Shown piece after piece: positions 5,693 to 64,000 of a DNA stretch of 64,000 bases. Below the pieces are notes generated by a model, which was given only the letters and a program-made list of their open reading frames with translations, made no database searches and was not told the DNA's origin. This DNA is from Aliarcobacter faecis (GTDB taxonomy: Bacteria; Campylobacterota; Campylobacteria; Campylobacterales; Arcobacteraceae). Position 1 is the first letter of the stretch. The number at the start of each line of letters is the position of its first letter. The position numbers were made by a program, and so were the translations under genes. The stretch is from NCBI RefSeq assembly GCF_013201705.1, contig NZ_CP053837.1, positions 2,108,001-2,172,000 on the forward strand, in the 5' to 3' direction.

Positions 5693-7162
5693 TTATGCTT
5701 TTCCGCTTAACATTCCATACATTGTCATTGGTTTAAGTAGATAAACTTTCATTAACCACCAAATCCATCTCTCTTGTACTGGATCCAAAGGAAAAGATGG
5801 AGTTGGTTTTGCACTCCAATCAAACTCAGCGAGCATAACTTTACCAATATCAGTTATTAAAGGACAAACTGTATATCCCCCATATTTTTCAGTTGGTTCT
5901 TTGCCTTCCATAACCAAAATTAAATTATCAACTAAAACTTTATACTGTTTTCTCACACTTCCACCTGTTTTACCCATAGGAACGGCTGCAATATCTCCTA
6001 TTGAGAAGATATTTTTATATTTAACATGTTGTAAAGTCTCTTTATTAACTGGTACCCAACCTTTAGCTGATCCAATAGCTGAATTTCCTATCTCATCAGG
6101 TGCTTTTTGCGGAGGAGTTATATGTAAAAAATCAAAAGGTACTTCAACATTTAAATGCTTTTTAATCTTATCATACTCTTTTAATTCCTCATCATATTCA
6201 CCCTGCTCTTCCCAATGCTTATCAAAAGTTGCAATTTTCTTAGAAATATCAACAGCTATTAAATTATGGTTAAAATTCCATTTCATATCTCTTGCAATAA
6301 ACTGTTTTTCAATAGCATCTGCATACTCTTTTACACCAAATAATTTCCCTCCATCATCATAATATGTTAATGTTGCATTTGCTCTAGCTTTTGCTTCATT
6401 TAATCTTGAATTTAATAGATACATAACTTTTTTAGGAGCACCTCCACATTTTATAGCAGTATTTGGGGCTGTAAAAACTGCCTTTACCTTATCTTTCTTA
6501 GCTTTTTCAATAAACTTTTGAGTCTGTTCCCACATATGGGCAGAACTATCAATATTATAAACAGTTGTTACTCCACTATCCCCAAAAGCTTTTAGGATTT
6601 TACTTGCATCTCCTACACTATAAGCATCTCCAACCTCTTCTAATCCTTTAATTACTCCATAATCAAGAGTAATTCCAGCAGCAACTATTAAATAATCATA
6701 ATCAATAACTTCTTTACTTGATAATATTAATTTATTTGCTTCTGGATTAAAATCAACTGCTTTATCTTGAATCCATTTAACACCTTTTGGCATATAATCT
6801 TTTGTTTCATATAGTAGTTCATTTTTTGATTTATAAACTCCACTTGCCACAAGAGTAGCTCCTGGTTGATATGAAACAGATTTTGGGTTTGGTTCAATTA
6901 TTGTAATATCTGCATCTTTCAATGCACTCATAAGTCTAGCTGCTGTTGAAACTCCAGCTAATCCACCACCAACTATTACTATTTTACCTTTTGCTTCACT
7001 ACTTGCTTTTGCAATAGTTGCAGCTTGTGCTTGGCTTCCACCTGCTAAATATGCAGCTCCACCTAGACCAGCTAGTTTAAAGGCGTCTCTTCTTGAAATC
7101 CCTGCTTTTTTTATCTCTGAATTTACAATTTCGATAGCTTTTTTTAACTCATTTTTATTCAT
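5693..7162 (-). CDS. sqr: Type II sulfide:quinone oxidoreductase with Tat signal
   Basis: A flavoprotein that oxidises sulfide and passes electrons to quinone. The N-terminus has a twin-arginine signal (SRRDAFKLAGLGG, Arg pair about 25). The FAD fold follows (VIVGGGLAG) and two redox cysteines are at the positions expected for the animal/bacterial type II enzyme (KCGGAPKK about 239, GYTVCPL about 433). The stretches HITPP and GWVPVNKETLQH also match that type; an acidic insertion lies near 320-340. The ATG at 7162 has AAGGA at six-base spacing, while the ATG at 7168 abuts it. A Tat signal means the enzyme works on the periplasmic face. Confidence 0.88.
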   Translation of the reverse strand: MNKNELKKAIEIVNSEIKKAGISRRDAFKLAGLGGAAYLAGGSQAQAATIAKASSEAKGKIVIVGGGLAGVSTAARLMSALKDADITIIEPNPKSVSYQPGATLVASGVYKSKNELLYETKDYMPKGVKWIQDKAVDFNPEANKLILSSKEVIDYDYLIVAAGITLDYGVIKGLEEVGDAYSVGDASKILKAFGDSGVTTVYNIDSSAHMWEQTQKFIEKAKKDKVKAVFTAPNTAIKCGGAPKKVMYLLNSRLNEAKARANATLTYYDDGGKLFGVKEYADAIEKQFIARDMKWNFNHNLIAVDISKKIATFDKHWEEQGEYDEELKEYDKIKKHLNVEVPFDFLHITPPQKAPDEIGNSAIGSAKGWVPVNKETLQHVKYKNIFSIGDIAAVPMGKTGGSVRKQYKVLVDNLILVMEGKEPTEKYGGYTVCPLITDIGKVMLAEFDWSAKPTPSFPLDPVQERWIWWLMKVYLLKPMTMYGMLSGKA

Positions 7163-7207
7163 AGCCATTCCTTTTAAAAAAATACCTTAGATAGTAACAA
7201 AATACTC

Positions 7208-7237
7208 ATAATAATTCACTTATTTTAATAAGTTCAA
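7208..7237 (-). promoter_or_regulatory. Promoter with spacer palindrome for the sulfide operon
   Basis: On the minus strand TTGAAC and TATTAT are 18 bases apart, about 45 bases upstream of the gene. The spacer contains the palindrome ACTTATT-TT-AATAAGT (7218-7233), in the place where a repressor would block RNA polymerase. Confidence 0.5.
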
Positions 7238-7257
7238 GTTTTATAAATATTATTAGT

Positions 7258-7842
7258 TTAATTTATAATTTTAAGTGCTTTTTTATACTCTGCTTTATCA
7301 TTTAAATTTAGAAATTCCTCTTCATTCTCAAAATATAAATTTTGAGTTCTTGAGTTTTTAATTAAATAGTTTATCTTATGAATATCACTCTTTATCATAT
7401 CTTCTATCAGAGTTAAAGTAGTTTTAGAAAATACACCACAAAGGTTATGAGTACCAAAAGATGTTTGTGCAATAGTTATATCAAAATTATTTGAAGAATT
7501 TATTAATTTTTCTATAATTTCAAGAGTTATAAATGGAGTATCAACTGTAATTATGAAAACTTTTTCATTTTCTAAAGTTTTTATAATAGTTTGCAAAGCT
7601 AAAATAGGAGAATAAATATCAATGTTTTCATCTATAATTAACTCTTTCTTATCCTGTAGAAAAGAAAATTTATCTAATTTTGAAGAAATATAAATATTTT
7701 GAAAATATGGTTTTAATCTATTATATTGAAACTCTATTAAAGAGCTTGAGGAACCAAAAGGAAGAAGAGATTTATCTTCTCCCATTCTTTGACTTTTTCC
7801 ACCACTTAAAATAATACAAGGTATAGAAAATTTATCTATCAT
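7258..7842 (-). CDS. mobA: Molybdenum cofactor guanylyltransferase
   Basis: Adds GMP to molybdopterin to make the guanine dinucleotide form used by formate dehydrogenase and related enzymes. The 194-residue protein opens with the nucleotidyltransferase signature IILSGGKSQRMGEDKSLLPFG (the GG-x-S-x-RMG-x-DK loop), with a metal-binding TVDTPF near residue 100. It lies about 65 bases downstream of leuC on the same strand. The cysteine-poor, Lys/Ile-rich sequence is ordinary for this genome. Confidence 0.9.
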   Translation of the reverse strand: MIDKFSIPCIILSGGKSQRMGEDKSLLPFGSSSSLIEFQYNRLKPYFQNIYISSKLDKFSFLQDKKELIIDENIDIYSPILALQTIIKTLENEKVFIITVDTPFITLEIIEKLINSSNNFDITIAQTSFGTHNLCGVFSKTTLTLIEDMIKSDIHKINYLIKNSRTQNLYFENEEEFLNLNDKAEYKKALKIIN

Positions 7843-50126: not shown

Positions 50127-50203
50127 TGGTACGCCTGGTAGGAGTCGAACCCACAACCCCTCGGGTCGAAACCGAGTATTCTATCCAGTTGAACTACAGA
50201 CGC
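50127..50203 (-). tRNA. tRNA-Arg (anticodon TCG)
   Basis: The minus strand gives GCGTCTG at the 5' side pairing with CAGGCGT before A and an encoded CCA. The anticodon stem CTCGG/CCGAG closes the loop TTTCGAC, with anticodon TCG, and the T arm is GTGGG-TTCGACT-CCTAC. The outermost acceptor pair is G-T. It stands alone between the prenyltransferase gene and the pilus-like locus. Confidence 0.95.
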
Positions 50204-50372: not shown

Positions 50373-51044
50373 ATGCCATATTTAGTATCTTCTATAATAG
50401 CTATTGTAGCTGCACTTATAATTTTAATGACAAGATATGAAGCAGATGATAGTGCAATAACAGCAGAAATTGAAAGAGCAAAATCACAATTTCTTGCAGT
50501 TGATGGTTTTGTGAATACTTATATTCAAAGTGGTGGAGATATGAATATAGGAACAATAGATGAATCATACACAAAATTAAATTTTGCAACACTTTATAAG
50601 AATGGAATATTATTAGGGAATATAACTAAAGATGATATTTTGGGTGTAACTTTGAATGATAGTAAATTAGCTGGAGAGGAAACAGATAAAACTAAATTTT
50701 TCCAATCAAAATTACAATTCCCAAAAAGTAATATCACTTGGCAAATAGTTCCTATTGTAAGCGGGGATACAATAAAAGATAGTACAGGGACTGATAAAAA
50801 TATAAGCTCAAGTGCAGGAACTGGATATAAAGTTTTTGTTGACTTTAGTGCTAATTCAACTTTAAAAAGCAAAGATGCTTTTAGTGAAAATTTTTTTGGA
50901 AAAGAGATTTGTGAAAAAGTACTTTTTGGTAGCTTTATAAATAATGCAACATCTATATCTATTACAACAGCTACTTTAAATCAAATTATTACAACAAATG
51001 GAACAAATAAAGATAGTAAATTTGCTTGTGTAGTTTTTAAATAA
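50373..51044 (+). CDS. Pilin-like protein without a normal leader
   Basis: I do not recognise a named family. The 223-residue protein begins with a hydrophobic helix (MPYLVSSIIAIVAALIILM) that continues into a charged helix (AITAEIERAKSQFLAVDGFV) and then a beta-rich head with a Cys pair near the end (ICEKV, FACVV). This resembles type IVb pilins, but there is no charged leader, no Gly at a cleavage position and no Glu at position five. The start is well set by AAAAGGGAAG. It opens the pilus-like locus, with its own promoter. Confidence 0.7.
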   Translation: MPYLVSSIIAIVAALIILMTRYEADDSAITAEIERAKSQFLAVDGFVNTYIQSGGDMNIGTIDESYTKLNFATLYKNGILLGNITKDDILGVTLNDSKLAGEETDKTKFFQSKLQFPKSNITWQIVPIVSGDTIKDSTGTDKNISSSAGTGYKVFVDFSANSTLKSKDAFSENFFGKEICEKVLFGSFINNATSISITTATLNQIITTNGTNKDSKFACVVFK

Positions 51045-51082
51045 ATTATTCTTCAATTATTTATATATAAATAATATTTAGA

Positions 51083-51102
51083 AGCTGGTCTAAAATCCAG
51101 CT
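51083..51102. repeat. Hairpin and repeated motif downstream of first pilin-like gene
   Basis: AGCTGG and CCAGCT form a hairpin around TCTAAAAT. The motif TGGTCTAAAATCCAG recurs with one change at about 52022-52036, behind the next pilin-like gene. The surrounding 224-base gap (51045-51268) otherwise holds the promoter of the next gene. Confidence 0.5.
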
Positions 51103-51223
51103 ATAAATTAATATTCCTAAAACTCAAAATATTTACCTAATAATTTATTGATTAATATCAAATACAATACTTATTTAATACTTTTTAAGAAAATAAAAAG
51201 TTATTTTATGCTAAAAGTTTGAG

Positions 51224-51229
51224 TATAAT
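51224..51229 (+). promoter_or_regulatory. -10 element (TATAAT) for second pilin-like gene
   Basis: TATAAT within GAGTATAATAG, about 40 bases upstream of the start codon, after a T/A-rich stretch. With the hairpins on both sides it makes this gene a separate transcription unit. Confidence 0.6.
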
Positions 51230-51268
51230 AGTTTAAAAACTATAAATTTAAAATTAAAAGGGGTAAAA

Positions 51269-51961
51269 ATGCCACAGTTGATAGCGATGATTATCATTGT
51301 TGTTGGAGCTATGATATATATGTTCCAAACATTTGGAGGAACTGGAGATAAAATCGAAGGTATTGCACAAAAAGCAAGTGTTATTACAGAAGTTAATAAT
51401 ATTAAAAATGGTTTAAAACTAGCTGCTAGAGCTGGAGATGTTAAAGTAGGTACAACTCTACAAGATTTAGCAAAATTAGGTTATTTTCCAGAACAAGTAA
51501 ATGAGCAAATTACAAAAGCTACTGGGAATAATGTAAATACTTATAATGCCATTTCATTTGGTGGACAAACTGATCAAGGAAATCCAGCAATGCAAGTTCT
51601 TTTAGTTGCAAATACTAAAGATATGGTTCCAGGTATTTTTGTTAAATTTCCAAAAAATGGTTCATTAGGTTCAAGTGGAGGATTTTTAGAGTCTCAAGTT
51701 GCAAATGATTTAAAATCTATTGCTATGATTCATAGAAGTGCAAAAGTAGGGACTGATAATGTAACTACAGCAGCAAATACTGTTGCTCAAAATTCTAATG
51801 GTACTGGAATAGAAAAAAGAACTCCTAAAGTTGGAACTGCAACCACAACAAAAAATGATGCGGGTGAGAATGTAACTACATATGTAGATACAGCGGACAA
51901 TGATGATGGTGAATTTATAATCTACTTTAATGACTTTGGTTCAAATGAAGTTATAAAATAA
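51269..51961 (+). CDS. Probable major pilin-like subunit
   Basis: The 230-residue protein begins with a leaderless hydrophobic helix (MPQLIAMIIIVVGAMIYMF) followed by an amphipathic helix (KASVITEVNNIKNGLKLAARA), then a low-charge beta-rich and Gly/Thr/Asn-rich head without cysteines. Strong ribosome site AAAAGGGG, its own promoter and two terminator-like hairpins behind it suggest high, separate expression, as for a major subunit. I do not recognise the family; similarity to type IVb pilins is by architecture only. Confidence 0.7.
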   Translation: MPQLIAMIIIVVGAMIYMFQTFGGTGDKIEGIAQKASVITEVNNIKNGLKLAARAGDVKVGTTLQDLAKLGYFPEQVNEQITKATGNNVNTYNAISFGGQTDQGNPAMQVLLVANTKDMVPGIFVKFPKNGSLGSSGGFLESQVANDLKSIAMIHRSAKVGTDNVTTAANTVAQNSNGTGIEKRTPKVGTATTTKNDAGENVTTYVDTADNDDGEFIIYFNDFGSNEVIK

Positions 51962-51965
51962 TTAT

Positions 51966-52004
51966 ATAAATATTTAGGCAGAATGCCTAAATATTATATT
52001 TTAT
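51966..52004 (+). terminator. Terminator-like hairpin after major pilin-like gene
   Basis: ATATTTAGGCA and TGCCTAAATAT form a perfect 11-bp stem around GAA, followed by TATATTTTATTT. It begins about nine bases after the stop codon. Confidence 0.7.
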
Positions 52005-52054
52005 TTGAAATATAAAAATATTGGACTAAAATCCAGTTTACAAAAATAATAAAA

Positions 52055-52096
52055 ACAAGAACTAAGTTCTATTTCTAGAATTTAGTTCTTATTTTC
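52055..52096 (+). terminator. Second terminator-like hairpin before the pilus operon
   Basis: AAGAACTAA and TTAGTTCTT enclose TTCTA/TAGAA, giving a long near-perfect stem followed by ATTTTC. It ends about 30 bases before the next start codon, so partial readthrough could set the ratio of pilin to machine genes. Confidence 0.6.
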
Positions 52097-52121
52097 TACA
52101 AAAAAAGGTGAGGAGAGTTTA

Positions 52122-52850
52122 ATGCTTGGAAATATTTGGATATCATCTGCTTTAGTTGTTATCATAATATTTTCTACTGGGGCATTATGGAAATCTATTA
52201 GTGATATAAAAGAGGCTAAACAGATACAAGAACATTATGAAATAATAAAAGATATAAAAACTTTAATAGCAAAACAGTATAATAAAAATCCACAAGATAT
52301 AACAAGGGATGAAATTATAGCTCATTTACCAAAGGGTGAAAATTGGGAAAAAGCTTTACTTCTTGATAGATCAAAAGATAGTAATCTTTCAAATAAAGAA
52401 CTTATAAACACTCAAGGGAACATAACAATTAGTGAAGATGAGAAATTGAAACTTTTAGCTTTGAAAGCAAAATTATTAGACAATAGCCAAATGCAAAAAG
52501 ATGGGGTTATCTATAATATTAAAGTTGGAATAGATGAAAAGAATAGTGTTAAATATGATAAAGACATTGAAAAGAGTATAGATATTATTATAAATGTTTT
52601 AGCACAAAATATTTTATATGCAACTACTCCAAATAAAACACAAACTGCAATCAACTCTACAATAGAAGGACTAATTCCTTATGACAAACTATATTTTACA
52701 TTTTTAAAAGACAATGAGACAACTATAAGTGATACTGAATTAAAAACAAGACAATTAAATTTTTTTAAGAAAAAGATAAAGGAACGACTCTATAAAAATG
52801 AGTCTTCAATCGAAACAAGATTGTATAAAGAACTGGAAAGTTTATTATGA
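52122..52850 (+). CDS. Minor pilin-like membrane protein
   Basis: The 242-residue protein has an N-terminal hydrophobic helix (about 5-23, WISSALVVIIIFSTGALW) without a prepilin leader, then a charged helix (KEAKQIQEHYEIIKDIKTLI) and a mostly helical soluble part. The order helix-then-helix-then-head, with NPQDITRDEIIAHLPKG after the second helix, echoes the two pilin-like proteins before it. No named family is recognised. RBS is AAAGGTGAGG, and its stop overlaps the next start by four bases. Confidence 0.65.
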   Translation: MLGNIWISSALVVIIIFSTGALWKSISDIKEAKQIQEHYEIIKDIKTLIAKQYNKNPQDITRDEIIAHLPKGENWEKALLLDRSKDSNLSNKELINTQGNITISEDEKLKLLALKAKLLDNSQMQKDGVIYNIKVGIDEKNSVKYDKDIEKSIDIIINVLAQNILYATTPNKTQTAINSTIEGLIPYDKLYFTFLKDNETTISDTELKTRQLNFFKKKIKERLYKNESSIETRLYKELESLL

Positions 52851-53599
52851 AAAAGGTTTTAGTAATTCTTATTTTATTATCAAATTTTACTTTTGCTTTA
52901 AATTTAAATAATTTTGAGGATAGACAAACTATTTTACTAGATATTAAAAAAGTTATACAAAAAGAGGAATCAATAGCAAGAGCTTACGAAAAATATATTT
53001 TAGATAATTATAATATTCCTGAAAATATAAATGCTTTATATTCTACAAACTATTTATCAGAAACTAATGTTAAATTTATAGAAGATATTTCAAATTTTAC
53101 CTCTTATTTTACTACATTTACAATTTCTTCAAATCAAATTTCTTATGCTTTATTAGATACTTTAAAAAATGATACAGAAATAAAAAATCTATATGAAAGT
53201 AATACTTTTAGAACAAAAACATATTTTAAAAATAATAAAATTAACTTTATTTTAGAAGATGCTTTTGCAAAACATTTATATGATTTAATTAAAACTAATA
53301 ATGGTGCTATTACGAACTGTCCAACTACAGTTTTTACTACAGCTATAAACTGTAAAGAGAATAATCATATTTATATAAAACTTACAAAAAAATTAGAAAA
53401 TAGTGTTGTTGTACCAGATAAATACTTAATTGCATATCATATTGATAAATTTAAAACTGGTCCTATTATAATCACAGATGATACTTCAAAACATATAACA
53501 GAATCTATATTTAATTCTATTCCTAAAGGTGCTTTACTTTATGATAAAAATGGAGTTAAATACCTAAAAACAATCTCTAGTATAGAGGTTTTAAAATGA
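52847..53599 (+). CDS. Exported protein of the pilus-locus paralogue family, copy 1
   Basis: The 250-residue protein has a signal peptide (MKKVLVILILLSNFTFA) and a module shared with the three related genes in this locus: helix VIQKEESIARAYEKYIL, then NIPENINALYSTNYL, then a stretch with FRTKTYF and a Cys pair (NCPTTVFTTAINC). Here the module is the whole protein. No function is known; the shared module is probably a subunit or tip component of the fibre. It is coupled to both neighbours by four-base overlaps. Confidence 0.7.
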   Translation: MKKVLVILILLSNFTFALNLNNFEDRQTILLDIKKVIQKEESIARAYEKYILDNYNIPENINALYSTNYLSETNVKFIEDISNFTSYFTTFTISSNQISYALLDTLKNDTEIKNLYESNTFRTKTYFKNNKINFILEDAFAKHLYDLIKTNNGAITNCPTTVFTTAINCKENNHIYIKLTKKLENSVVVPDKYLIAYHIDKFKTGPIIITDDTSKHITESIFNSIPKGALLYDKNGVKYLKTISSIEVLK

Positions 53600-54354
53600 T
53601 TAGAAGTGTTATAGTTTTATTTATTCTATTTATTTATTCTTATGCAAATGAGAATTTAATCGCCCAAAAACAAAATACTTTATATGTCCAGAATTTAATT
53701 GAGATTGAAGAAAAAATAGCACAAAATTTTGAGAAATATCTTTTAACTGAATTTCAAATCCCCTCTATAAATAATTTAATAAATAATAATTATTTAGGTA
53801 GTAATTTCTCAATTCAAAATAGAATGGGGAGTAATATAGATTTCAAAGATGCTTCAAATTTACAAATAAAATATGCAATAATAAAAAATGAATTTATAAA
53901 TTCTGAAGATTATTTAATTTTACTCTATAATAGAGATTTATATAGAGATTATACAACAGTAAATTTTCAATTAACTGATGATGCTAAAATTGATTTAACA
54001 AAATCTTATGTTGAATTTAAACTAAAATCTCCTGAAGCAATCACAATTTACAATATATTAAAATCAGGTGCTACAATAGAAAAAAACTGCTCAGCTACTT
54101 TAGTCAGCAAATATTGTAATAATGATAAAACTTCTATTAGATGGTATAATTCTAGTTCTAATTGGATTGAATATAGTAAAAAAGAGTTTAACAATGGAAA
54201 TATAACTATAAGTAGTGAAAGTATTATTACTTCTGATGTTGATAAATTAAGAAATCTAAAAATTGGTAGTTATATTTTCATAAAAGATAAAACAAAAAAT
54301 GTAAAATTAATTAATGATTTATCAGATAATTTACAAATTCTTAAGGTGGATTAA
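53596..54354 (+). CDS. Exported protein of the pilus-locus paralogue family, copy 2
   Basis: The 252-residue protein has a signal peptide (MIRSVIVLFILFIYSYA) and the same order as copy 1: helix IEIEEKIAQNFEKYLL, QIPSINNLINNNYLGSNF, and a Cys pair (KNCSATLVSKYC) followed by IRWYNSSSNW. The same WY/SW segment recurs in the larger copy 3 (ISWYEYYYEGNGSW). No function is known. Its TAA stop is directly followed, in the same frame, by the start region of copy 3. Confidence 0.7.
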   Translation: MIRSVIVLFILFIYSYANENLIAQKQNTLYVQNLIEIEEKIAQNFEKYLLTEFQIPSINNLINNNYLGSNFSIQNRMGSNIDFKDASNLQIKYAIIKNEFINSEDYLILLYNRDLYRDYTTVNFQLTDDAKIDLTKSYVEFKLKSPEAITIYNILKSGATIEKNCSATLVSKYCNNDKTSIRWYNSSSNWIEYSKKEFNNGNITISSESIITSDVDKLRNLKIGSYIFIKDKTKNVKLINDLSDNLQILKVD

Positions 54355-57261
54355 ATCAAAACTCTAATTTCAATATTAATTTCTATAAGCTTTGCTTTTT
54401 CATCTAGCCAAAATATATCTTTAATAAATGACTTAAAAAGTGTAATTCAAAAAGAAGAGTATTTATCTTTGGCAATAAATAAATACATTTTGCAAAATGG
54501 GAAAATTCCAAAAAAAAGTGATAATTCTTTAGATTGGGATAAACTTATGACAAGTGATTATTTAGGAACAAATTTTAATAAATATAATCCTATAACAAAA
54601 CAAAATATAGTAGTAACTTTTGATTCAAATAATATTGCCTTTATAAAAGGTGTTTTTTTAGATGATAAAAATTATACAAGTGAACTTAACTATTTATACA
54701 ATTTTTATATAAACAAAATTTTTAGAGTAAATACTATTCCTCCCAAAGATAATACAAAAGCTGAATTAGTAAAAGGTTCTCAAGTTCTATATAGCAAAAT
54801 CCAAAATGAAATAGTAAATATAATAAATGAAAATAAGAATAAAATATTTTTACCTACTCAAGATTGTGAAATTGGAAATTACTACTATGAGTTAAAAAGT
54901 GAAAGTTTAATATATAAATATTGCAAAACAGCAATTTCATCAATTGAAATTTATCAAGCAGCACCTATTTATCTAGATAATTTAGATGATTTAAAATATA
55001 TAAGAGTAGGTATAGGAGAAAAAGCTTATATTAAAGATGGTATTTCATGGTATGAATATTACTATGAAGGAAATGGTTCTTGGATACCTCTTGGAACAGG
55101 AAGGACTACTGGGCAGATAAATGATCAGCTTAGTATAGAAGATAGAATTTTATCATATATTCCTGATGCTAAAGATTTAGTTTTAAGACGAGATGGGGGA
55201 TGTATGCTTGCAAATGGTGATATTTTTTGTTGGGGAAATAATAGATATAAAAAAGTAGGAATTGAGAACTACGGGCAATTAGATACTACAATAAAACCTG
55301 ATTATGTAAATACTCCTGTTATGCTAAAAGTTCAAATAGAAGATTCTGTTCAAAATAATAAAAGATGGTATAACAATCCATATAGAATAAAATTTGAGAA
55401 AATGGCTATGAATAGTACAAATGTTTGTGGAATTTCGCCAATATTCAACTATTTTGAAGGTACTCAAAAAAAGTTTGGAGGAGATCTATACTGTAATGGT
55501 CAAATAACACCCTTATATTTTGAAAATATTTCTACAGGAAGTAATGAAACTTCAATATTAGGTAAAAATAAATTTTTTGGATGGGGGAAAAGTGATAAAA
55601 CTGATGACCCACCCAAATTAATAAAAATTTCTGAAGATGGTGGACCTATTGAAAAGAATTCTTTAGGAGAAGAATTAACCATAACAAGAGATGAAATATA
55701 TCTAACGGATATTGTAATGGTAGAAGATACTATTGCTGTTTTATCTGATGATGGGAAAATATATACTATTGGAAAAAACTATAATGGAGCACTAGGAATT
55801 GGAAGTGATGATAAGTTTATAATTCAATCTACACCTAAAGAAGTAAAAAATAATGATGTTTTATTTAAAAAAATATTCGCATTAAGAGATATTGCAACTT
55901 TTGGAGCAATAGACAGTAATAACTACTTTTATATTTGGGGAGAAAGACCAAATGGAAAAGTTTATTATGAACCAACAATTGTAAGTAATTCATTAAAATT
56001 CAACCCTGATGGTATTTTTACAAATAGTAAAGATTTTCTTTTAAAAGCAGTAAATAATAGTTTTTATAGAACAAAAAATAATATAGATTTAGTCCCTATT
56101 TCAGCAATACCTAGTACGGCAATAAGTGCTTCTATTTACGATAACAATTCCACAGAACTTTATATTTATGTAAATGAAAATATGGTTTTAGAAGGAAATA
56201 ATGATTTTTTAGTTTGTAAAGAGTCTAATAGTTCAAATTGTGATACAACAGATACAGCAATTTTTAAAACAGCTTTAAATGAACTAAATAGTATTACAAA
56301 TAGATTTAATGGAAAAGATTATGCAAATTTTGCAAATGTTTCCATTTATAGATTAGATACTGTAAAAGCTGAAACATTTGAGGATTTTGAAAATAAGAGT
56401 ACTACAGGGTGGAGTAGAAATACAATAACTACTATTCCTAATAATGGTGATTTAACAAAAGTTCCAGCAACAACCTTTTTAGGACGTTTCCCAACAAATT
56501 CTCCTTGTACAGGAAATCCTTGTAGCGATGAAAGTCCATTTAGCGTTACGAAAACATATACCTTTTCTCAATATCCAAATCATGAAGTTGAAATAGAATT
56601 TGATTTTTATGAAATTGGAAGTTGGGATGGAGAAAGATTTGAAATATATGCAAATGGGGTACTATTAGCTCAAGATCATTTTATATGGGATGGGCATGCT
56701 TTTATGAAAGATAGTAATGTAACAGGTATATATTTACAAGATAATATATCTTTAATATCTGGACATAATTATAATCAAACTTACAAATATAAATTAAAAT
56801 CAAAATTGAATAATGCTGGACAATTACAATTAGAATTTAAAACTAGCTTAGAATTTCAAGGAAATAATACAGAAACAAATCAAAGTGATTATCAAAAAAA
56901 ACCTCCTTTATATGGAAATTATTGGTCTAAATTTGATGAAGGTCTCTCTAATGAATCCTGGGGAATTGATAATATACGAATAAAAGTAAAAGAAACAAAT
57001 AAAATATTTGTTTGTTCAATGACAAGTATGGGGAGTGCTTCACAAATGTATTGTTGGGGAAATATTGGAAGAGGTGTACCAATTTTAAGTACTTCTTTGT
57101 ATGATGTTGCTAAAATATCTACTATAAATAAGTTATTTGTTACTCAAGAAAGTGAAAAGACAAGTCAAATGGCATTTGATAAATTCAATGATTCTGGTAA
57201 TTTATTTTTAAAATACCCAACATATATTGGTGGATTTGATTATCCATTTTACTTTAAATAA
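54355..57261 (+). CDS. Large RCC1-like surface protein, copy 3, with ATC start
   Basis: Probable pilus-associated adhesin of 968 residues. The first conventional codon (TTG, 54469) would remove the signal peptide; the frame is open back to 54355, giving KTLISILISISFAFS after ATC, with AAGGTGG five bases upstream. The start is therefore inferred to be ATC. Order: signal peptide, the family module (about 20-250, Cys171 and Cys190), RCC1-like repeats (GGCMLANGDIFCWGNN about 282, IAVLSDDGKIYTIGKN about 460), a jelly-roll-like domain (FEDFENKSTTGW to SWGIDNIRIKV, about 675-880) and a last MYCWGNIGRG. Ligand unknown. Confidence 0.75.
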   Translation: MKTLISILISISFAFSSSQNISLINDLKSVIQKEEYLSLAINKYILQNGKIPKKSDNSLDWDKLMTSDYLGTNFNKYNPITKQNIVVTFDSNNIAFIKGVFLDDKNYTSELNYLYNFYINKIFRVNTIPPKDNTKAELVKGSQVLYSKIQNEIVNIINENKNKIFLPTQDCEIGNYYYELKSESLIYKYCKTAISSIEIYQAAPIYLDNLDDLKYIRVGIGEKAYIKDGISWYEYYYEGNGSWIPLGTGRTTGQINDQLSIEDRILSYIPDAKDLVLRRDGGCMLANGDIFCWGNNRYKKVGIENYGQLDTTIKPDYVNTPVMLKVQIEDSVQNNKRWYNNPYRIKFEKMAMNSTNVCGISPIFNYFEGTQKKFGGDLYCNGQITPLYFENISTGSNETSILGKNKFFGWGKSDKTDDPPKLIKISEDGGPIEKNSLGEELTITRDEIYLTDIVMVEDTIAVLSDDGKIYTIGKNYNGALGIGSDDKFIIQSTPKEVKNNDVLFKKIFALRDIATFGAIDSNNYFYIWGERPNGKVYYEPTIVSNSLKFNPDGIFTNSKDFLLKAVNNSFYRTKNNIDLVPISAIPSTAISASIYDNNSTELYIYVNENMVLEGNNDFLVCKESNSSNCDTTDTAIFKTALNELNSITNRFNGKDYANFANVSIYRLDTVKAETFEDFENKSTTGWSRNTITTIPNNGDLTKVPATTFLGRFPTNSPCTGNPCSDESPFSVTKTYTFSQYPNHEVEIEFDFYEIGSWDGERFEIYANGVLLAQDHFIWDGHAFMKDSNVTGIYLQDNISLISGHNYNQTYKYKLKSKLNNAGQLQLEFKTSLEFQGNNTETNQSDYQKKPPLYGNYWSKFDEGLSNESWGIDNIRIKVKETNKIFVCSMTSMGSASQMYCWGNIGRGVPILSTSLYDVAKISTINKLFVTQESEKTSQMAFDKFNDSGNLFLKYPTYIGGFDYPFYFK

Positions 57262-57270
57262 GGAAGAGAT

Positions 57271-58938
57271 TTGAGAGAGTTTAAAAATTTAATTACAATT
57301 TCTACAGCTATTCTACTGTTTTCTGGTTGTAGTCCCAAAAGTTTTCACAATGAGATGATAGAAAGCACTAAGAAATCTTTAGATAAAAAAGATTATAACA
57401 GTATCAAACAATCCTACTCTGATAGTTTGATAGATGAGATAGATATACAAAAAGCATATATCTCTGTAATAGATGATAAATCTTTAGGTGATATATTAAA
57501 AGAGCTTGAACAAATAGATGGAAACTTATACTTTTTAAAAAGTAGTGATATCTTAGTTCCAAAAAGTAGAATAAAAATATCAAGTTTTGAAGATTTAAAC
57601 AACTACTTAAATGCTGTTTTAGACAAAACTCTTACAGTTGAACAAAATGGACAGATGTATTTAGTAAAAATCTTAAATTCTAGTGAGAGAAAAAAAAGAT
57701 CAATTAAATCAATTCCTTTTAACCTTGAAGGGCAAATTACTGTAGAGGAATTAATAAGACTTATAACTGTAGAGTCTGGTTATGAGGTAAATATTGGAAG
57801 TTTTATAGAAAATAGAAATGATTTCCAAAATAGTATTGTGCAAATAAGTTCAAGAGATTTGCAAGATGCACTAAATTCATTAGCACAATCAAAAGATGTA
57901 TATGTAGATATAGATTATGATAAAGAAGCTATAAATATAAGTAGATATAAAGATGTAGTTATTGAACTTAATATTCCACTTTTAGATATGAGTTCATCTA
58001 GCCAAACTTCAAATCAAGAGACAAGTGGAGGAGAGAGTAAAATAGAAAATAAATCTCAAATTGTACTTTATGAAGAACTAGATAAAATGCTAAAAAATAT
58101 TATCTCAACCGATAAAATTTCATCTTATCATATAGATAAAGCAAGTGGTTTAATTTTTTTAAAATCTACAAAAAGTATAGAAAATGCTGTACGAACTTTG
58201 GCAAAAGCTTACGAAGCTAGTTTTGCAAAAGAGGCTATTATCGAGTTTGAAAGAATTGAAGTTTTATTAAATAAAAGTAGATCTTTTGGTATTTTAGGAG
58301 CTGATTTTGCAAAAACTGGAGATGGAACTTCTTGGAATGTAGGACCACTTTCAGCTGAAAGTACAGGAGCTTTAGGATTTGAAACTATAAATCCAACAAG
58401 AACCCTAAGAATGCTTGCTGATTCTAAAAATGATATTGGGAAAATGCTAAATTATAGTAAAAATATGATTGTTCTAAAAAATAATATTCCATCTGTTCAA
58501 GCTATTACTGATAATACTGATTATGTTGAAAAAATTGAAACAACAAGAGATGCGGATACAAAAGAGAGAACATCTGATGTTACAGTAAATACTTTAAAAG
58601 AGGGAACAAGTATCACTGCTATGGCAAAAATATCAAGAGATAAAATATTTTTAAATATAGCACCAACAATTAAAAAACTAATTACATTTAAAGAAGTAAG
58701 TATTGATGGAACAACTATTCAACTTCCTCAATACAATGACCAAAGTTATAATGTCTCAAAAGAGGTTAAATTAGGAGAGACTTCTATTGTTGGGTCTATC
58801 ATAGTTCATGATGATGCAAAAAATTATCAAGGTATAGTTCCAATAGAGAGCTTTGCAATAGGTGGAACAGACTCAAAATCTTATGTAAGACGAGAGATTG
58901 TTTATGTAATTACTTTAAAAGAGATAAAAGGTTTCTAA
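57271..58938 (+). CDS. Type IVb pilus-like lipoprotein secretin
   Basis: Outer-membrane channel of the machine, similar in plan to PilN/BfpB lipoprotein secretins. The 555-residue protein starts at TTG after AAGGAAGAG, with a lipoprotein signal (lipobox LFSGC, about residue 20). N-terminal domains include FNLEGQITVEELIRLITVES (STN-like, about 150). The C-terminal secretin domain includes EAIIEFERIEVLLNKSRSFG, KNNIPSVQAI and LNIAPTI, and closes with a REIVYVITLKE strand. It lies nine bases after copy 3. Confidence 0.88.
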   Translation: MREFKNLITISTAILLFSGCSPKSFHNEMIESTKKSLDKKDYNSIKQSYSDSLIDEIDIQKAYISVIDDKSLGDILKELEQIDGNLYFLKSSDILVPKSRIKISSFEDLNNYLNAVLDKTLTVEQNGQMYLVKILNSSERKKRSIKSIPFNLEGQITVEELIRLITVESGYEVNIGSFIENRNDFQNSIVQISSRDLQDALNSLAQSKDVYVDIDYDKEAINISRYKDVVIELNIPLLDMSSSSQTSNQETSGGESKIENKSQIVLYEELDKMLKNIISTDKISSYHIDKASGLIFLKSTKSIENAVRTLAKAYEASFAKEAIIEFERIEVLLNKSRSFGILGADFAKTGDGTSWNVGPLSAESTGALGFETINPTRTLRMLADSKNDIGKMLNYSKNMIVLKNNIPSVQAITDNTDYVEKIETTRDADTKERTSDVTVNTLKEGTSITAMAKISRDKIFLNIAPTIKKLITFKEVSIDGTTIQLPQYNDQSYNVSKEVKLGETSIVGSIIVHDDAKNYQGIVPIESFAIGGTDSKSYVRREIVYVITLKEIKGF

Positions 58939-58941
58939 AAT

Positions 58942-59958
58942 ATGCAACTATTTGCCGATCCATATGAACAGTTTTTATTAGACTATCTTGTAACAAAATT
59001 AGAAAATGGTTCAAATACAAGGAGAGCCTTAATTCTTTATAGCGAACAAATAAGCAAAGAAACAAAGTTTAAAAAAAGACTTCTTGCGGCAATTAAAGAT
59101 ATGGAAATAGGAAAACAAAATCTTGAAGGGATTTTATTTAAACATAAATTTTTAAATAGTTTTCAATTTTCACTAGTTGTAAATAGCACAAATACATTAG
59201 ATGGGTTAAAACTTGTATTGTCTTTTAAAAAAGCAAACTCAAATCTAATAGTAAAGATGATAAATCCTATTTTTGTTCCTCTAGTTATTATTATTGGAAC
59301 ATTTTATGGGCTTATAAAATATCTTGATATTTTACAACTAGATTTAATACTTTTAAGAAAATTAAACCCTGATGTTGAACAATTTTTAGGAATTCCAAAA
59401 TATTTTACCTATGATTTTGCATATATTGGATTAGCTATATCTATAATTATTACAGCATTTATATTTTTTGGATATTTATATACTGAAAAATATAAGCCAG
59501 GGTGGTTATATAAAGTTTTTAAAACTCAAGCCTACTCTGATGGTAGGTTTATGTTTAGAATTTTAAATGGTATGCTTAGTGCTGGTATTTCATTTCATAA
59601 AACATCTTTAATTTTATCAAAAGATTATTTTAAAGAGGGACTTAGACCATTTTTTAGAGATTTAGCAATTATGATTAATAAAAATAAAAAGCTTTATGTA
59701 ATGTTTGAGAAATATAATTTTCCACCACTTATTACTGCTGATATAAAATTATCTGAACTAAGTAAAACAAGTTTTTCTGAAGTTACAAAAGCTTTATACC
59801 AAACTTGTGATACTATGTATGAAAAACAGATAGATTATATGATTTTACAGTGGAAGTTTTTCTTCTGGTTAATTGCAATGTTAATTACTGTTGTTATTGG
59901 TTCTGATATTATTAACTTAGTTATTAGTACATTTACATTTAAAACTTTATATCAATAA
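58942..59958 (+). CDS. GspF/PilC-like inner-membrane platform protein
   Basis: Polytopic platform of a type IV pilus or type II secretion-like machine, more like the short PilR/BfpE form. The 338-residue protein has an N-terminal cytoplasmic helical domain (about 1-100), membrane segments at about 112-132, 157-176 and 307-328, and a second GspF-like half with GRFMFRILNGMLSAGISFHKT. It lies three bases after the secretin and ten before the ATPase gene. The call rests on motif and context. Confidence 0.85.
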   Translation: MQLFADPYEQFLLDYLVTKLENGSNTRRALILYSEQISKETKFKKRLLAAIKDMEIGKQNLEGILFKHKFLNSFQFSLVVNSTNTLDGLKLVLSFKKANSNLIVKMINPIFVPLVIIIGTFYGLIKYLDILQLDLILLRKLNPDVEQFLGIPKYFTYDFAYIGLAISIIITAFIFFGYLYTEKYKPGWLYKVFKTQAYSDGRFMFRILNGMLSAGISFHKTSLILSKDYFKEGLRPFFRDLAIMINKNKKLYVMFEKYNFPPLITADIKLSELSKTSFSEVTKALYQTCDTMYEKQIDYMILQWKFFFWLIAMLITVVIGSDIINLVISTFTFKTLYQ

Positions 59959-59968
59959 GAGGCTTAAA

Positions 59969-61666
59969 ATGTTAAGTAAATTTTCCATCAATCTAAAAAA
60001 GCCAAATTTTAAATTTCTAAAAAATAGTAAAAAGTTTCAATTTAATAAAGAATCATTAGAAAAGATTTTTAGAGACTTTGATTATAAAGCTTATTTAACT
60101 AAATATAAAAATAGATTTAATGAACTATTAGGAAAAGAGTCTGATAATACAAATCATCTAGGAAATATGATTGAGGCTATGATACAGACAAAATATAAGT
60201 TGAAAGGTGGATTTTCTGATTTAATAGCAAACGAAGCAAAATATGAGAGTTTTGTAAGAAGTTTAGGTTATGAATATTTTGATAGTTATACAGAGCTTCT
60301 TAAAGTATATAAAGATACTTCAAGTTTTTTAGATGATAAAAAACAAGAACTTTGTGCAAATATGTATATTATAACTCTGGAAGATATAAAAAATAAAAAT
60401 AAAGTTTTAGGAATTAGAGATGTTGTAAATTTAGATTTTGAAGTATTAAGTAAATTCTATTTTACAAAAGTTGTAGTTCTTGGAGAGGGTGTTTTATCTT
60501 CAGTATTTGGAGAAGATAGAGAGATTATCTTTAATTCCAATGCTGATACAGAAAATGATGAAGAGATAAATAAATACTTTGATAAGATGATGGGGCAAGC
60601 AATACTTTTAGGAGCATCTGATATACATATTCAAAAAACTAGTCGTTATGCCTCTTTATGGTTTAGAATAGATGGTATAAAAGTTGATATGGGAACTATG
60701 CCTATAGCCATTGCAAAAACAATAAAAAGAAGATTAGTAACTATGGCTGACCAAGAAGACTCTGATTATGAGTCAATAAATGGGGTTATCAACTATGATT
60801 ATGCAAAAAAGAATATCAAATTTAGAATTGGATTAATCAACTCAAAGTTAAACTTCTCTTTAGTTATGAGGATGATTGGTGGTAAAGGTGTAGTTTCTCA
60901 TAATCTTTCTGGACTTAACTATCCAGAAGAGACTATAAAAATATTAAATAATCTTTCAAAATATGCAAATGGAATGATTCTTATAACAGGACAAGTTGGA
61001 AGTGGGAAAACTCATCTAATGTATGCCCTACTTCAACAACTAGCAAAACAGCAACAATATGTTATTACTATCGAAGACCCTGTTGAGTATGTTGATGAGT
61101 CATTTTTCCAAATCGATTTATCAGAGTTTGCAAGTGCTAGTGATGAGTTTAAATATGGTTACCCTGAAGCTGTTGTTGATATCCTAAGGCAAGATTCAAA
61201 TATTATCCTTATTGGAGAGACTAGAGAACCTCAAACCGCACAACAACTTGTAAATGCTTCAAACTTAGGACAGCTTGTATTTTCAACAATGCACACCAAC
61301 TCTGCACCTGCAACAGTTTCAAGGATGACAAGTTCACTAGGAATAAATGAAGGGGATATAATAGATAATTTAAGAGGAATTGTATCTCAAAGACTTGTTA
61401 GAAAACTTTGTAAATTCTGTAGTGTTCCTGATAATACTGGTGGATATAAAAAAGTTGGTTGTGATGAATGTAGTCATACTGGATTTAAAGGTAGGGTCCC
61501 TATTGCTGAAGTTGTAAGATTTAAATTAGGTCATGGTGGGGATTTCCAAAATCCAGCAGAATATATGACTGTTGAAAAAGCTGCAATGGCACAATATTAT
61601 GCAGGATTTATAACTCATGAAGATGCAACTGCAATTATAAGAGGGGAAGAAGTATGGTACGATTAG
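59969..61666 (+). CDS. GspE/PilB-like assembly ATPase
   Basis: Cytoplasmic hexameric ATPase that powers fibre extension. The 565-residue protein has an N-terminal domain of about 200 residues and the catalytic core: Walker A GQVGSGKTH (341-349), Asp box ITIEDPVEY (about 367), Walker B IILIGE (412-417) and His box MHTNSA. A Cys4 zinc site, CKFC and CDEC (481-501), marks it as an extension ATPase, not PilT. No retraction ATPase is in the window. It overlaps the next gene by 13 bases. Confidence 0.93.
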   Translation: MLSKFSINLKKPNFKFLKNSKKFQFNKESLEKIFRDFDYKAYLTKYKNRFNELLGKESDNTNHLGNMIEAMIQTKYKLKGGFSDLIANEAKYESFVRSLGYEYFDSYTELLKVYKDTSSFLDDKKQELCANMYIITLEDIKNKNKVLGIRDVVNLDFEVLSKFYFTKVVVLGEGVLSSVFGEDREIIFNSNADTENDEEINKYFDKMMGQAILLGASDIHIQKTSRYASLWFRIDGIKVDMGTMPIAIAKTIKRRLVTMADQEDSDYESINGVINYDYAKKNIKFRIGLINSKLNFSLVMRMIGGKGVVSHNLSGLNYPEETIKILNNLSKYANGMILITGQVGSGKTHLMYALLQQLAKQQQYVITIEDPVEYVDESFFQIDLSEFASASDEFKYGYPEAVVDILRQDSNIILIGETREPQTAQQLVNASNLGQLVFSTMHTNSAPATVSRMTSSLGINEGDIIDNLRGIVSQRLVRKLCKFCSVPDNTGGYKKVGCDECSHTGFKGRVPIAEVVRFKLGHGGDFQNPAEYMTVEKAAMAQYYAGFITHEDATAIIRGEEVWYD

Positions 61667-62403
61667 CAATTACTGATTTTGCTTCAAAAGAGGAGAGTGA
61701 ATATTTTTACGTAAATGAAGAGTATGAAACTTCTCAAAATATGTTTACATATTCAGCATTTAAAAGATATAGTGCCTATTTACCGAAAGAAGATACAAGT
61801 AAATTTTATTCTTTAAATCTCTTATCAAAGAAATATTTAGAAAAAAATAGATTTTTAATCCATATTGCAGATGAAGAGTTTATAATTTTATTTAATCATA
61901 AAACAATTTATAGTGCAAAAATAAATCCAAGCTTTATTACAGATGATATGATTAAATCTATACTAATTACTAAACATATTACTATGCTAAGTAGTGGAGG
62001 AGAACTTGATAAATTTTATTATGTAATTAATTCAAAATTTAGAGCTGCTTTAGAAATAATTTTAAAACAAAATATTAAAAATGAAAAGAAACAAGTTATT
62101 GCTCAATCTTTAGGAGATATTGAAGATTTAGTTGCCTCTTTAAAAGATTTAGATACTCCACAATCTCATACAACTAAACTATCTATTTTAGCTCTTTTAC
62201 TTGGTGGAAGTTTTTGGTTAAGTTTTTTTGGACTTAGCATAATAAAAGATAAATATCTTCAAATAGAACCTCTTGAACCACTAAAACAAGAACTTAATTT
62301 TGAAAATAGTTTTAAAACAAGGCAATTAAAAACTCTAAGTGATGTACAAAAGGAATATAATAAACTAACAGAGTGTATCACATACAAAGAGGATTTAAAA
62401 TGA
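61654..62403 (+). CDS. Single-pass membrane assembly protein (PilO/PilL-like by position)
   Basis: The 249-residue protein has a soluble part of about 180 residues, one membrane helix (about 184-202, ILALLLGGSFWLSFFGLSI) and a short periplasmic tail. It has the topology of GspL- or R64 PilO-type proteins that connect the ATPase with the inner-membrane complex, but there is no decisive family motif. The start overlaps the ATPase end by 13 bases, and its stop overlaps the next start (ATGA). Confidence 0.65.
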   Translation: MVRLAITDFASKEESEYFYVNEEYETSQNMFTYSAFKRYSAYLPKEDTSKFYSLNLLSKKYLEKNRFLIHIADEEFIILFNHKTIYSAKINPSFITDDMIKSILITKHITMLSSGGELDKFYYVINSKFRAALEIILKQNIKNEKKQVIAQSLGDIEDLVASLKDLDTPQSHTTKLSILALLLGGSFWLSFFGLSIIKDKYLQIEPLEPLKQELNFENSFKTRQLKTLSDVQKEYNKLTECITYKEDLK

Positions 62404-62891
62404 TAAGTATTAGTAATAGCACTTTAAAAAAAGTTTCGAAAACTATAGTTTTAGGAATAATTACTTATACACTATTTTTTATGACCTCAACAGTTATAGA
62501 ATATTATCACTCATATAAAGATAAAGAACGACTTACAAATGAATTACAAATAAAAAGAGATGAAACAACTGCTTTAAAACAGGAAATAAATAATCTAAAA
62601 GAGAAGATAAAAATAATTCAAGAGAGTTATATAAAAGAAGATGAAATAAAAATTAGAGTTAGTGAAATCTTTGATAGGGTATCTTTACTTGACTATCAAT
62701 TAAAACTTATAGATGTAAAAAATGAGTGTATAGATAGACATATTATCATTGCTAGATTATATGCAAATAGCGAAAATGGTTTTAAAGTAGGTGAAGGGAT
62801 TTTTAACTATCTTGGAGAGACTATTAGAAGTGAACAAGATGAAAATCTATATTTTATAAACTATATCTCAAGACCAAGGGATATAAAATGA
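62400..62891 (+). CDS. Single-pass membrane coiled-coil protein (GspM/PilP-like by position)
   Basis: With the ATG at 62400 (AGAGGA upstream) the protein is 163 residues: a membrane helix near 14-34, a coiled coil at about 45-80 (rich in Lys and Glu) and a small beta domain at the C-terminus. The topology is that of the inner-membrane alignment proteins of pilus and type II secretion machines. No named family is recognised. ATGA overlaps couple it to both neighbours. Confidence 0.65.
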   Translation: MISISNSTLKKVSKTIVLGIITYTLFFMTSTVIEYYHSYKDKERLTNELQIKRDETTALKQEINNLKEKIKIIQESYIKEDEIKIRVSEIFDRVSLLDYQLKLIDVKNECIDRHIIIARLYANSENGFKVGEGIFNYLGETIRSEQDENLYFINYISRPRDIK

Positions 62892-64000
62892 GAATTTTTT
62901 TAATTTTGTATCTCCTAGTTTTTAATCTATTTGCAAATAATTATATAGATTCAATAACTCTAACAAAAATAAAAAAACTTGTACAAAAAGAAGAAGAAAT
63001 TGCTCTTGCTTATAAAAATTATATTTTAGAAAAAGGTATAAATCCTTCAAATCTAAATGATTTAAAAACAACAAATTATTTACCAAAGGGTTTTAATACA
63101 ATAAATCCTTTTGGTAAACAAATTTCTCTTATGATTAATAATTCAACACCCACAAATAAAAAAGATGATATTCACAAGATAGAAGGCTTTAAATCAACAG
63201 ATCCTCTACTTAAATCAAATTTATATGATTATTACTATTCAAATAAATATAGAACTAATACAAAAGCTCCTTTAACTATAAATAATAGTGATATTGAAAT
63301 TATTTTATCACCAAAAGAAAAATTCATATATGAAAATAGTTCAAATATTACAACTACTATTCCAAATAATTCAACTAAAACTCCAAAAAATAAATATTAT
63401 TTAGACAATAATGGTGTTTTACATTGGTATGATAGTAATGGAAATTATAAATTTTCTTATGATAAAGAGCTACTTCTTGATCAAAGTGTAACTTTATTTA
63501 ATACAGATGGTACCATAAATAGTGATTATAAAGATTTAGTAAAAGATATAGAATTTATAGGAATGACCATATTACATAAAAAAGACCAAATAGCAGAAGA
63601 ACATATAAATATAAGTTCAAATAATATAATAAAAGTAAATAAACAAAATAGAGATATAGGAAAAACAATTATTCAATTTAGTAGAAGAGCTGGTGGAATG
63701 ATTGTAAATGGAGATATATATACTTGGGGAAATAATGGAAATAAAATAACTGGTATAAATTTAGGATATTCTGGTAATAAATTATCAAATGCTTATCCCG
63801 TAATCACTGGTTTAGTTCCAGTTAGAGCAAAAATGTATGATACAGAAATATATATAGAAGAAACAAATAATAATACAAATAAAGCTACTTGTAAATCACC
63901 TATTGGAAGTGGAACTATAAATTGTAAATATACATCATCTAATTGTGATAACCCTACTGGAAATGGATCTCTTCTTTGTAAAGATATAGGTAGTAAGTAT
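62888..64000 (+). CDS. RCC1-like surface protein of the paralogue family, copy 4, partial
   Basis: The frame is open for 371 codons to the right edge, so this is a truncated view of a longer gene. It has a signal peptide (MRIFLILYLLVFNLFA), the family helix KKLVQKEEEIALAYKNYILE, then NDLKTTNYLPKGFN. An RCC1-like unit (GGMIVNGDIYTWGNN, about 277) corresponds to GGCMLANGDIFCWGNN of copy 3. The last visible part has several cysteines (TCKSP, NCKYTSSNC, LLCKD). It starts in an ATGA overlap with the preceding gene. Confidence 0.8.
   Translation, partial: MRIFLILYLLVFNLFANNYIDSITLTKIKKLVQKEEEIALAYKNYILEKGINPSNLNDLKTTNYLPKGFNTINPFGKQISLMINNSTPTNKKDDIHKIEGFKSTDPLLKSNLYDYYYSNKYRTNTKAPLTINNSDIEIILSPKEKFIYENSSNITTTIPNNSTKTPKNKYYLDNNGVLHWYDSNGNYKFSYDKELLLDQSVTLFNTDGTINSDYKDLVKDIEFIGMTILHKKDQIAEEHINISSNNIIKVNKQNRDIGKTIIQFSRRAGGMIVNGDIYTWGNNGNKITGINLGYSGNKLSNAYPVITGLVPVRAKMYDTEIYIEETNNNTNKATCKSPIGSGTINCKYTSSNCDNPTGNGSLLCKDIGSKY

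Follow-up and report, generated by a model that had tools for sequence, protein, structure and literature searches.

A conserved locus of Arcobacteraceae that probably encodes a type IVb-like pilus with leaderless pilins and exported tip proteins

Can a type IV pilus be built from pilins that carry no leader? The removal of the leader by prepilin peptidase counts as the defining step of type IV filament biogenesis, and type IVb prepilins carry a leader of 15–30 residues that this enzyme cuts. The question is raised by a locus in the 2.45 Mb genome of Aliarcobacter faecis (G000; G and L numbers are our handles for genomes and loci), found in a stretch of 64,000 nucleotides, the window, that spans positions 2108001–2172000 of contig 1. 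The locus comprises 14 genes on the + strand, from window position 50373 to about 67426, in the order pilA1, pilA2, pil3, sp1, sp2, rccA, secretin, gspF, ATPase, mem1, mem2, rccB, SH3 protein and conserved cytoplasmic protein. The gene names were coined in this analysis, and all named genes are open frames in the list of open reading frames (ORFs). A preliminary description had seen here a divergent type IVb-pilus-like locus that might continue past the window and was a candidate for an undescribed system. We consider it likely that the locus encodes a type IVb-like, probably non-retracting pilus with leaderless pilins and exported tip proteins. It is a real variant of the type IVb kind, conserved and without a name in the libraries that we searched; its assembly, processing and function we infer.

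The genes pilA1 (50373..51044) and pilA2 (51269..51961) are at the centre of the argument. In the window, PilA1 begins with MPYLVSS, and PilA2, the probable major subunit, with MPQLIAMIII; Shine–Dalgarno (SD)-like sequences, AGGGA and AAGGGG, lie 4 and 5 nt upstream, respectively. In alignments of 23 sequences each, PilA2 opens with MPQLIAM in 22 cases and with MPLLIAA in G051, while PilA1 opens with MPY, MAY, MGY or MPL. The start codon is ATG except in two of the 23 pilA1 genes, where it is TTG. An SD-like match precedes 46/46 of these starts by 4–11 nt, as against 7.2% of ATGs on the same strand of the same loci. Neither protein has a charged leader, Gly at −1 or Glu at +5, so that both differ from type IVb prepilins with their leader of 15–30 residues. 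The class III leader pattern (Gly−1, Glu+5) occurs in 0/657 ORFs of 24 loci versus 10 ORFs in L101–L104, the comparison machines described below. Eight pilA1/pilA2 genes have an in-frame stop no more than three codons upstream, so that an ordinary leader is impossible there with any start codon; these stops carry weight since the rccA gene points to the use of rare start codons in the locus. An upstream in-frame ATG, GTG or TTG is absent from all 23 pilA2 genes. Finally, 46/46 aligned sequences have Pro, Ala or Gly as residue 2, the pilA1 rows of G029, G049 and G090 having been cut back to the conserved start from a TTG further upstream. These three residues permit the action of methionine aminopeptidase, and because one of them always stands there, we propose that this enzyme may stand in for prepilin peptidase. 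(Left out of our alignments were pilA2 of G075, which is cut; mem2 of G090; mem2 of G051, which could not be located; GspF of G014, which is interrupted; the short SH3 protein of G015; and rows from loci that lack the gene or in which it is cut.)

The two proteins are homologous to each other (hhalign probability 91.7, E 7.9e-7). The preliminary description had proposed structure prediction of the pilin-like proteins; applied to PilA2, it gave a type IV pilin arrangement. The AlphaFold2 model (pLDDT 84.4) has a single helix at residues 2–55 followed by a sheet, which is the pilin fold of a long N-terminal helix and a beta sheet. With VIA-align, the best seven of 19 rows were all type IV pilins, led by the type IVb pilins of enterotoxigenic Escherichia coli (ETEC) and Salmonella Typhi. 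Residue 1 of the ETEC pilin aligns at residue 3 of PilA2, so the PilA2 start codon sits about at the cut position of prepilin peptidase. The first helix of PilA2 is nearly invariant and its head variable among the 23 aligned sequences. PilA1 has an invariant C-terminal Cys pair (C180, C219), which by analogy recalls the D-region of type IV pilins. Overall, the system belongs inside the type IV filament superfamily, although strict type IVb membership fails on the leader. The locus has the GspE/PilB ATPase and the GspF/PilC platform of this superfamily but not its Gly−1/Glu+5 leader. This placement refines the preliminary description: the locus lies within the superfamily and not outside it.

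The subunits had been called unrecognisable, and database searches bear this out. Pfam and NCBIfam gave no convincing family for PilA1, PilA2, Pil3, sp1 or sp2, and no MSHA pilin family for the pilins of the locus. Nor did Pfam give one for 23 PilA1, 23 PilA2 and 22 sp2 sequences, one PilA2 member matching Pilin at E 0.12. Profile searches of PilA1, PilA2 and sp2 against the PDB returned weak or unrelated matches only, such as the pilin 6xxd at E 2.3 for PilA1. In those parts that we saw of the literature on Arcobacter and Aliarcobacter pili, leaderless pilins and type IV filaments, and likewise on RCC1 with type IV pili and on methionine aminopeptidase with pilins, we found no report of leaderless type IV pilins.

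The machine genes, in contrast to the subunits, are recognisable, as had been described. The assembly ATPase of the GspE/PilB type (59969..61666) is a clear T2SSE protein (PF00437, E 1.7e-66); the TfpB, GspE and PilB models of NCBIfam match it near-equally, all far under their cut-offs. The secretin lipoprotein (57271..58938) is MshL-like and BfpB-like. Its best NCBIfam match is MshL (TIGR02519, 52.6 bits, E 3.3e-14), far under the cut-off of 250.2 bits, and the match to the type IVb PilN model TIGR02520 (26.7 bits) is weaker and also under the cut-off. In Pfam, it has only a sub-threshold match to Secretin_N_2 (E 0.055). The secretin profile finds BfpB (9u5s) in the PDB at E 5e-4, tied with two unrelated ubiquitin-activating enzymes at E 4.2e-4. 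Cys20, in a lipobox recognised by eye, is invariant (24/24), and the protein is a lipoprotein secretin of the PilN/BfpB/TcpC kind. The GspF-like platform protein (58942..59958) has a weak match to PF00482 (E 0.0042, 17.5 bits, cut-off 25.2 bits), but its locus profile finds the GspF of three other machines. It is the most conserved aligned family (mean column identity of 83% over 24 rows, in a comparison made outside the ATPase). None of these NCBIfam models was over its cut-off when the ATPase and the secretin were searched with hidden Markov models (HMMs), as the preliminary description had advised. A full-length match to a named system, set beforehand as the result that would speak against novelty, was not found.

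Two single-pass membrane proteins follow, as had been noted. Mem1 (61654..62403; alignment of 25) shows by eye a cytoplasmic domain and one membrane helix, and mem2 (62400..62891; alignment of 23) a membrane helix and a coiled coil. For mem2, the ORF list gives a GTG start at 62373; we adopted the ATG at 62400 from the starts of its relatives, and searches used 62403 onwards. No convincing Pfam family was found for mem1, and no pilus family in Pfam matches mem1, mem2 or the SH3 protein (65247–66341, beyond the window end). Mem2 reaches 26.9 bits against DivIC, under the cut-off of 28.9 bits. Profile searches against the PDB led from the SH3 protein to bacterial SH3 domains and from mem2 to weak or unrelated matches only. 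Mem1 may have a GspL/PilN-like and mem2 a GspM/PilO-like role, and all three may be alignment proteins. In the whole genome, PF00437 is over its cut-off at two sites only, one being the ATPase of the locus and the other a GspE-like gene that neighbours a GspF-like one (L004). This search thus finds no PilT-like retraction ATPase in the genome, in agreement with what the preliminary description had seen in the window.

Three pilin-like proteins and four signal-peptide proteins had been counted, and the count holds, with signal peptides assigned by eye. The third pilin-like protein, Pil3 (52122..52850; alignment of 22), is minor-pilin-like, with an N-terminal membrane helix that in most rows follows a three-residue stub (MLG here); its frame opens further upstream in 3/22, and cleavage may or may not occur. 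The Sec-exported proteins sp1 (52847..53599), sp2 (53596..54354), rccA (54355..57261) and rccB (62888..65266; the window ends at 64000) indeed have one module in common: hhalign gives a probability of 99.9 for sp1 versus sp2 and 99.3 for sp2 versus the rccB N-terminus, and in rccA the module is seen by eye in the alignment. Behind it, rccA has RCC1-type repeats (PF00415, E 8.6e-9), and the C-terminal part of rccB is an RCC1/UVR8-like propeller. The conserved C-terminus of rccA reads KYPTYIGGFDYPFYFK in the window. The motif [KQN][YF]P.[YF]I..F[ND][YF].. ends 21/21 rccA and 22/23 rccB sequences fetched as well as the window copies, and is missing from the G051 copies.

The genome G049 offers a hint at the origin of these proteins. 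On another contig, it encodes two proteins in which the module follows a hydrophobic helix with no charged start (probability 95.2, E 2.8e-8 to rccB; weak profile matches to sp2 and sp1). We dropped an earlier reading of G049 as a genome without the tip module once these proteins were found. Because the module follows a membrane helix there, sp1, sp2, rccA and rccB are probably pilin relatives in which the transmembrane half-helix has been swapped for a Sec signal; profile comparison gave no direct link between the exported module and PilA1 or Pil3. As a separate observation, the C-termini of the two G049 proteins (L129:235-1842 and 5769-7400) look by eye like a formylglycine-enzyme/C-type-lectin fold, for which Pfam gives no family.

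Comparison between genomes suggests that these proteins act together. For the window versus G028, identity is 93–95% in the secretin, GspF and ATPase but 37–48% in pil3, sp1, sp2, rccA and rccB; for the window versus G002, it is 71–85% in the three machine proteins and 64–75% in the same five. After regression on machine distance in 19/25 genomes (G006, G014, G016, G049, G051 and G075 were excluded as broken, cut or incomplete), pil3, sp1, sp2 and rccA co-vary strongly. RccB co-varies with rccA and sp2, although five genes separate it from rccA, and moderately with sp1; the pair pil3–rccB falls short of significance. PilA2 distances follow no other gene, the machine included. Such a pattern, read from sequence distances, suggests that Pil3 forms a tip complex with sp1, sp2 and rccA, and partly with rccB, and it is the outcome to be expected if a tip cassette is swapped and the major pilin is exposed and changes fast.

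The locus is well kept where it occurs. An orthologous ATPase (49–100% identity) is present in 25/104 Arcobacteraceae genomes searched, the next matches having 37% identity or less. In a scan of named genomes, five loci were found in total, the nearest by ATPase being that of Arcobacter vandammei (92%), followed by those of two Aliarcobacter metagenome assemblies and two others (82–83%). Gene order in other Arcobacter-group genomes, a check named in the preliminary description, is complete in 20/24 fetched loci, that is, in 21/25 with the window, and is conserved far beyond chance. Among these 21, the ATPase frame is broken in G006 (L068), and gspF is interrupted in G014 by a 400-aa ORF (L059). 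The remaining four comprise G016 and G075, cut by contig ends, and G049 and G051, which differ. One stop was reported within the ATPase match of G094. Decay, which the preliminary description had named as a possible refutation if found in most genomes, is the exception among the 25 carriers.

PilA1 was found in 26/104 Arcobacteraceae genomes, the 26th being G001, where pilA1 stands alone (L130:7546-8169) near the ubiA–purM–coaE region with no further locus gene in the 20 kb read; it is a probable deletion relic. The PilA2 profile matches 13/398 sampled genomes of the order, all of them Arcobacteraceae. The locus lies downstream of ubiA in six genomes, that of the window among them, which belong to three genera (one of the six has a 267-aa ORF between); vertical descent with repeated loss therefore fits best. 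A mobile-element reading of the window locus was rejected, as PilA2 had no plasmid match and the ubiA neighbourhood is kept in these six genomes.

Where, then, did the leader go? At E 1e-8, the GspF profile found, in 397 sampled genomes of the phylum (a sample separate from that of the PilA2 search), beyond the leaderless loci, machines in G173 (L101) and G043 (L102) and a second copy in G051 (L103), among the rows listed and with at most five candidates scored per genome. The locus secretin profile matches the secretins of all three, whose gene sets are similar by eye, Sec-exported proteins included. Four other GspF proteins put to the test remained unmatched by the GspF profile at E 100. Canonical prepilins, with a K/R leader, Gly or Ala at −1 and Glu at +5, number one ORF in L101, two in L102 and two in L103, and five in the control L104, which was picked via its ATPase; the pilA1 and pilA2 HMMs have no match in L101–L103. 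Since ordinary prepilins persist in the closest related machines that we found, the simplest reading is that the leader was probably lost in the Arcobacteraceae lineage, though a profile comparison with a control gave no link between PilA1 or PilA2 and the pilins of these machines. The L101 product-length series equals that on a Caminibacter pacificus plasmid (L113). Six plasmids of Aeromonas and one from Shewanella (L114, L115) carry weaker secretin relatives, and annotated prepilins adjoin in the Aeromonas record read. On these plasmids (L113, L114, L115), the pilus machines are mostly annotated as hypothetical proteins.

Several observations weigh against a leaderless pilus, and we take them together with the explanations that they favour. 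One such explanation, fairly unlikely in our estimate, takes the locus for a type II-like secretion machine: PilA1 and PilA2 would make up a short pseudopilus, and the machine would secrete sp1, sp2, rccA and rccB as its substrates. The Sec-type signals, seen by eye, resemble those of type II substrates, CofJ and TcpF are known cases of secretion by type IVb pili, and no retraction ATPase was found in the genome. However, the secretin is nearest to the MshL and PilN models of NCBIfam, with no GspD model among those listed; PilA2 distances are unlinked to those of the machine, as for an exposed, fast-changing pilin head; and a module behind a helix, as in G049, suits a filament component better than free cargo.

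We give still less credence to an ordinary type IVb pilus in which an A24 peptidase encoded far away processes PilA1 and PilA2, either at a site of unusual kind or from a start further upstream that went unnoticed. Such an enzyme is at hand in 25/25 carriers. In A. faecis, the single A24 match of the genome (169 aa; L003) lies elsewhere on the same contig (contig 1, 161428), with no PF06750 match in the genome; the locus itself thus has no prepilin peptidase, as had been noted. An upstream in-frame TTG is present in 3/23 pilA1 genes and in the G001 relic, rare start codons are probably used at rccA (ATC/ATT), and most Pil3 rows keep a stub with G, S or A as its last residue, which prepilin peptidase would perhaps accept. 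Against this explanation stand the in-frame stops close upstream of eight pilA1/pilA2 genes, the lack of upstream starts in all 23 pilA2 genes, SD spacing that suits the start as used, and the missing Gly−1/Glu+5 pattern. The A24 peptidase is also near-universal regardless of the locus (101/104 family genomes), and none of the listed matches lies inside a fetched locus stretch. A reduced PilD as the cause of leaderless pilins was considered and rejected: A24 frames are short (164–199 aa) in many genomes of the genus, compared with about 250–275 aa in most others, and the short frames occur in carriers and non-carriers alike. A recheck added the upstream TTG cases, which lower the standing of a leaderless pilus, and the SD control, which raises it; our assessment did not change.

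Finally, it is very improbable that PilA1 and PilA2 stay anchored in the membrane as static proteins of the surface or periplasm, beside a machine that acts on something else: plain Foldseek gave no significant match for the PilA2 model and Glu5 is missing, but the first helix is nearly invariant and the head variable, the genes lie within a full pilus machine, pilins take the best seven of the 19 VIA rows, and G049 keeps pilA1 and pilA2 beside the machine with the tip genes not there.

The leaderless pilus that we favour is most like the type IVb pili (CFA/III Cof, Tcp, Bfp and the R64 thin pilus), with which it has a lipoprotein secretin, a GspE ATPase and GspF in common; the head of PilA2 also finds its best structural rows in type IVb pilins. 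Type IVb systems include CofB/CofJ, a minor pilin with an associated secreted tip protein, and the minor-pilin-like Pil3 and putative exported tip proteins of our locus resemble this pair. To our knowledge, none of the named type IVb systems has tip proteins that are exported, pilin-like and fitted with RCC1 propellers. The MSHA pilus supplies the best NCBIfam match of the secretin, yet at a score far under the MshL cut-off, and type IVa pili differ by their PilT. Type II secretion and competence pseudopili have the logic of ATPase and GspF in common with the locus, but the genome has a separate GspE/GspF pair (L004), whose GspF escapes the locus GspF profile even at E 100. The machines L101–L103 have the nearest GspF and secretin found and differ by their canonical prepilins.

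How might such a pilus be made? PilA1 and PilA2 would be inserted with the N-terminus inward, and methionine aminopeptidase would remove Met1, leaving a subunit that could be assembled in the absence of prepilin peptidase. Where ordinary pilins have an N-methylated Phe1, the secondary amine of Pro1 may take its place. Driven by the GspE-type ATPase, the GspF platform would push PilA2, as a filament, through the lipoprotein secretin, with mem1, mem2 and the SH3 protein aligning the machine. Pil3 together with sp1, sp2, rccA and rccB would form the tip, which the exported half-pilins, with a Sec signal in place of the transmembrane half-helix, would join from the periplasm; the RCC1 propellers of rccA and rccB are likely adhesins. 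It is tempting to join these ideas into one: type IV pilins free of prepilin peptidase, whose leader is the initiator Met, whose mature end is made by methionine aminopeptidase and in which Pro takes over from the chemistry of N-methyl-Phe and Glu5, and a Sec-delivered propeller tip of half-pilins. To this joint reading, we give slightly better than even chances.

Expression signals might add to this picture. Two hairpins with T-rich tails (51969-51995 and 52057-52090, + strand), found as inverted repeats and by a terminator scan, lie 3' of pilA2 and are possible partial terminators or mRNA stabilisers. They are two of the 4 terminator-like sites on both strands of 13.8 kb, an unremarkable count against 2.5 (sd 1.9) in shuffles. 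Stem-loops are predicted in 20/22 pilA2–pil3 intergenic regions, with changed sequence between genomes, a figure that comes without a shuffle control. A promoter scan gave fewer sites than shuffles.

The window rccA most likely starts not at TTG 54469 but at ATC 54355, which follows the stop of sp2 immediately and has AAGGTGG ahead of it. In 7/22 genomes, rccA opens at ATC, and in 1/22 at ATT, straight after the sp2 stop (the window and L048, L051, L052, L053, L054, L057 and L058), so that such starts are common to several species; G021, G090, G092, G094 and G099 have ATG there. The rccA SD extends into the end of sp2, and a start at any ATG, GTG or TTG would fail to preserve the whole rccA signal peptide. 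A precedent for a very rare bacterial start codon is infC; the literature on AUC starts, as far as we saw it, held nothing clearly relevant. The hairpins, and in some genomes the rare rccA start, may keep the tip proteins scarce relative to PilA2.

Two flanking features complete the description. Upstream of the locus, on the ubiA side, ARAGORN places a tRNA-Arg(TCG) at 50127..50203 on the − strand. At the other end, the conserved cytoplasmic protein (66350-67426) is the last gene; by eye, it (L002:4350-5426) ends in a degenerate GHKL-ATPase-like (histidine-kinase-like) stretch, for which Pfam gives no support.

If our interpretation is true, a conserved, mostly intact locus with leaderless subunits would show that leader cleavage can be lost from type IV filament biogenesis. 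Leaderless pilins would let one ask what purpose the leader, Glu5 and N-methylation serve, and exported half-pilins would be a second route to the pilus tip. The related machines with ordinary prepilins would provide the natural comparison.

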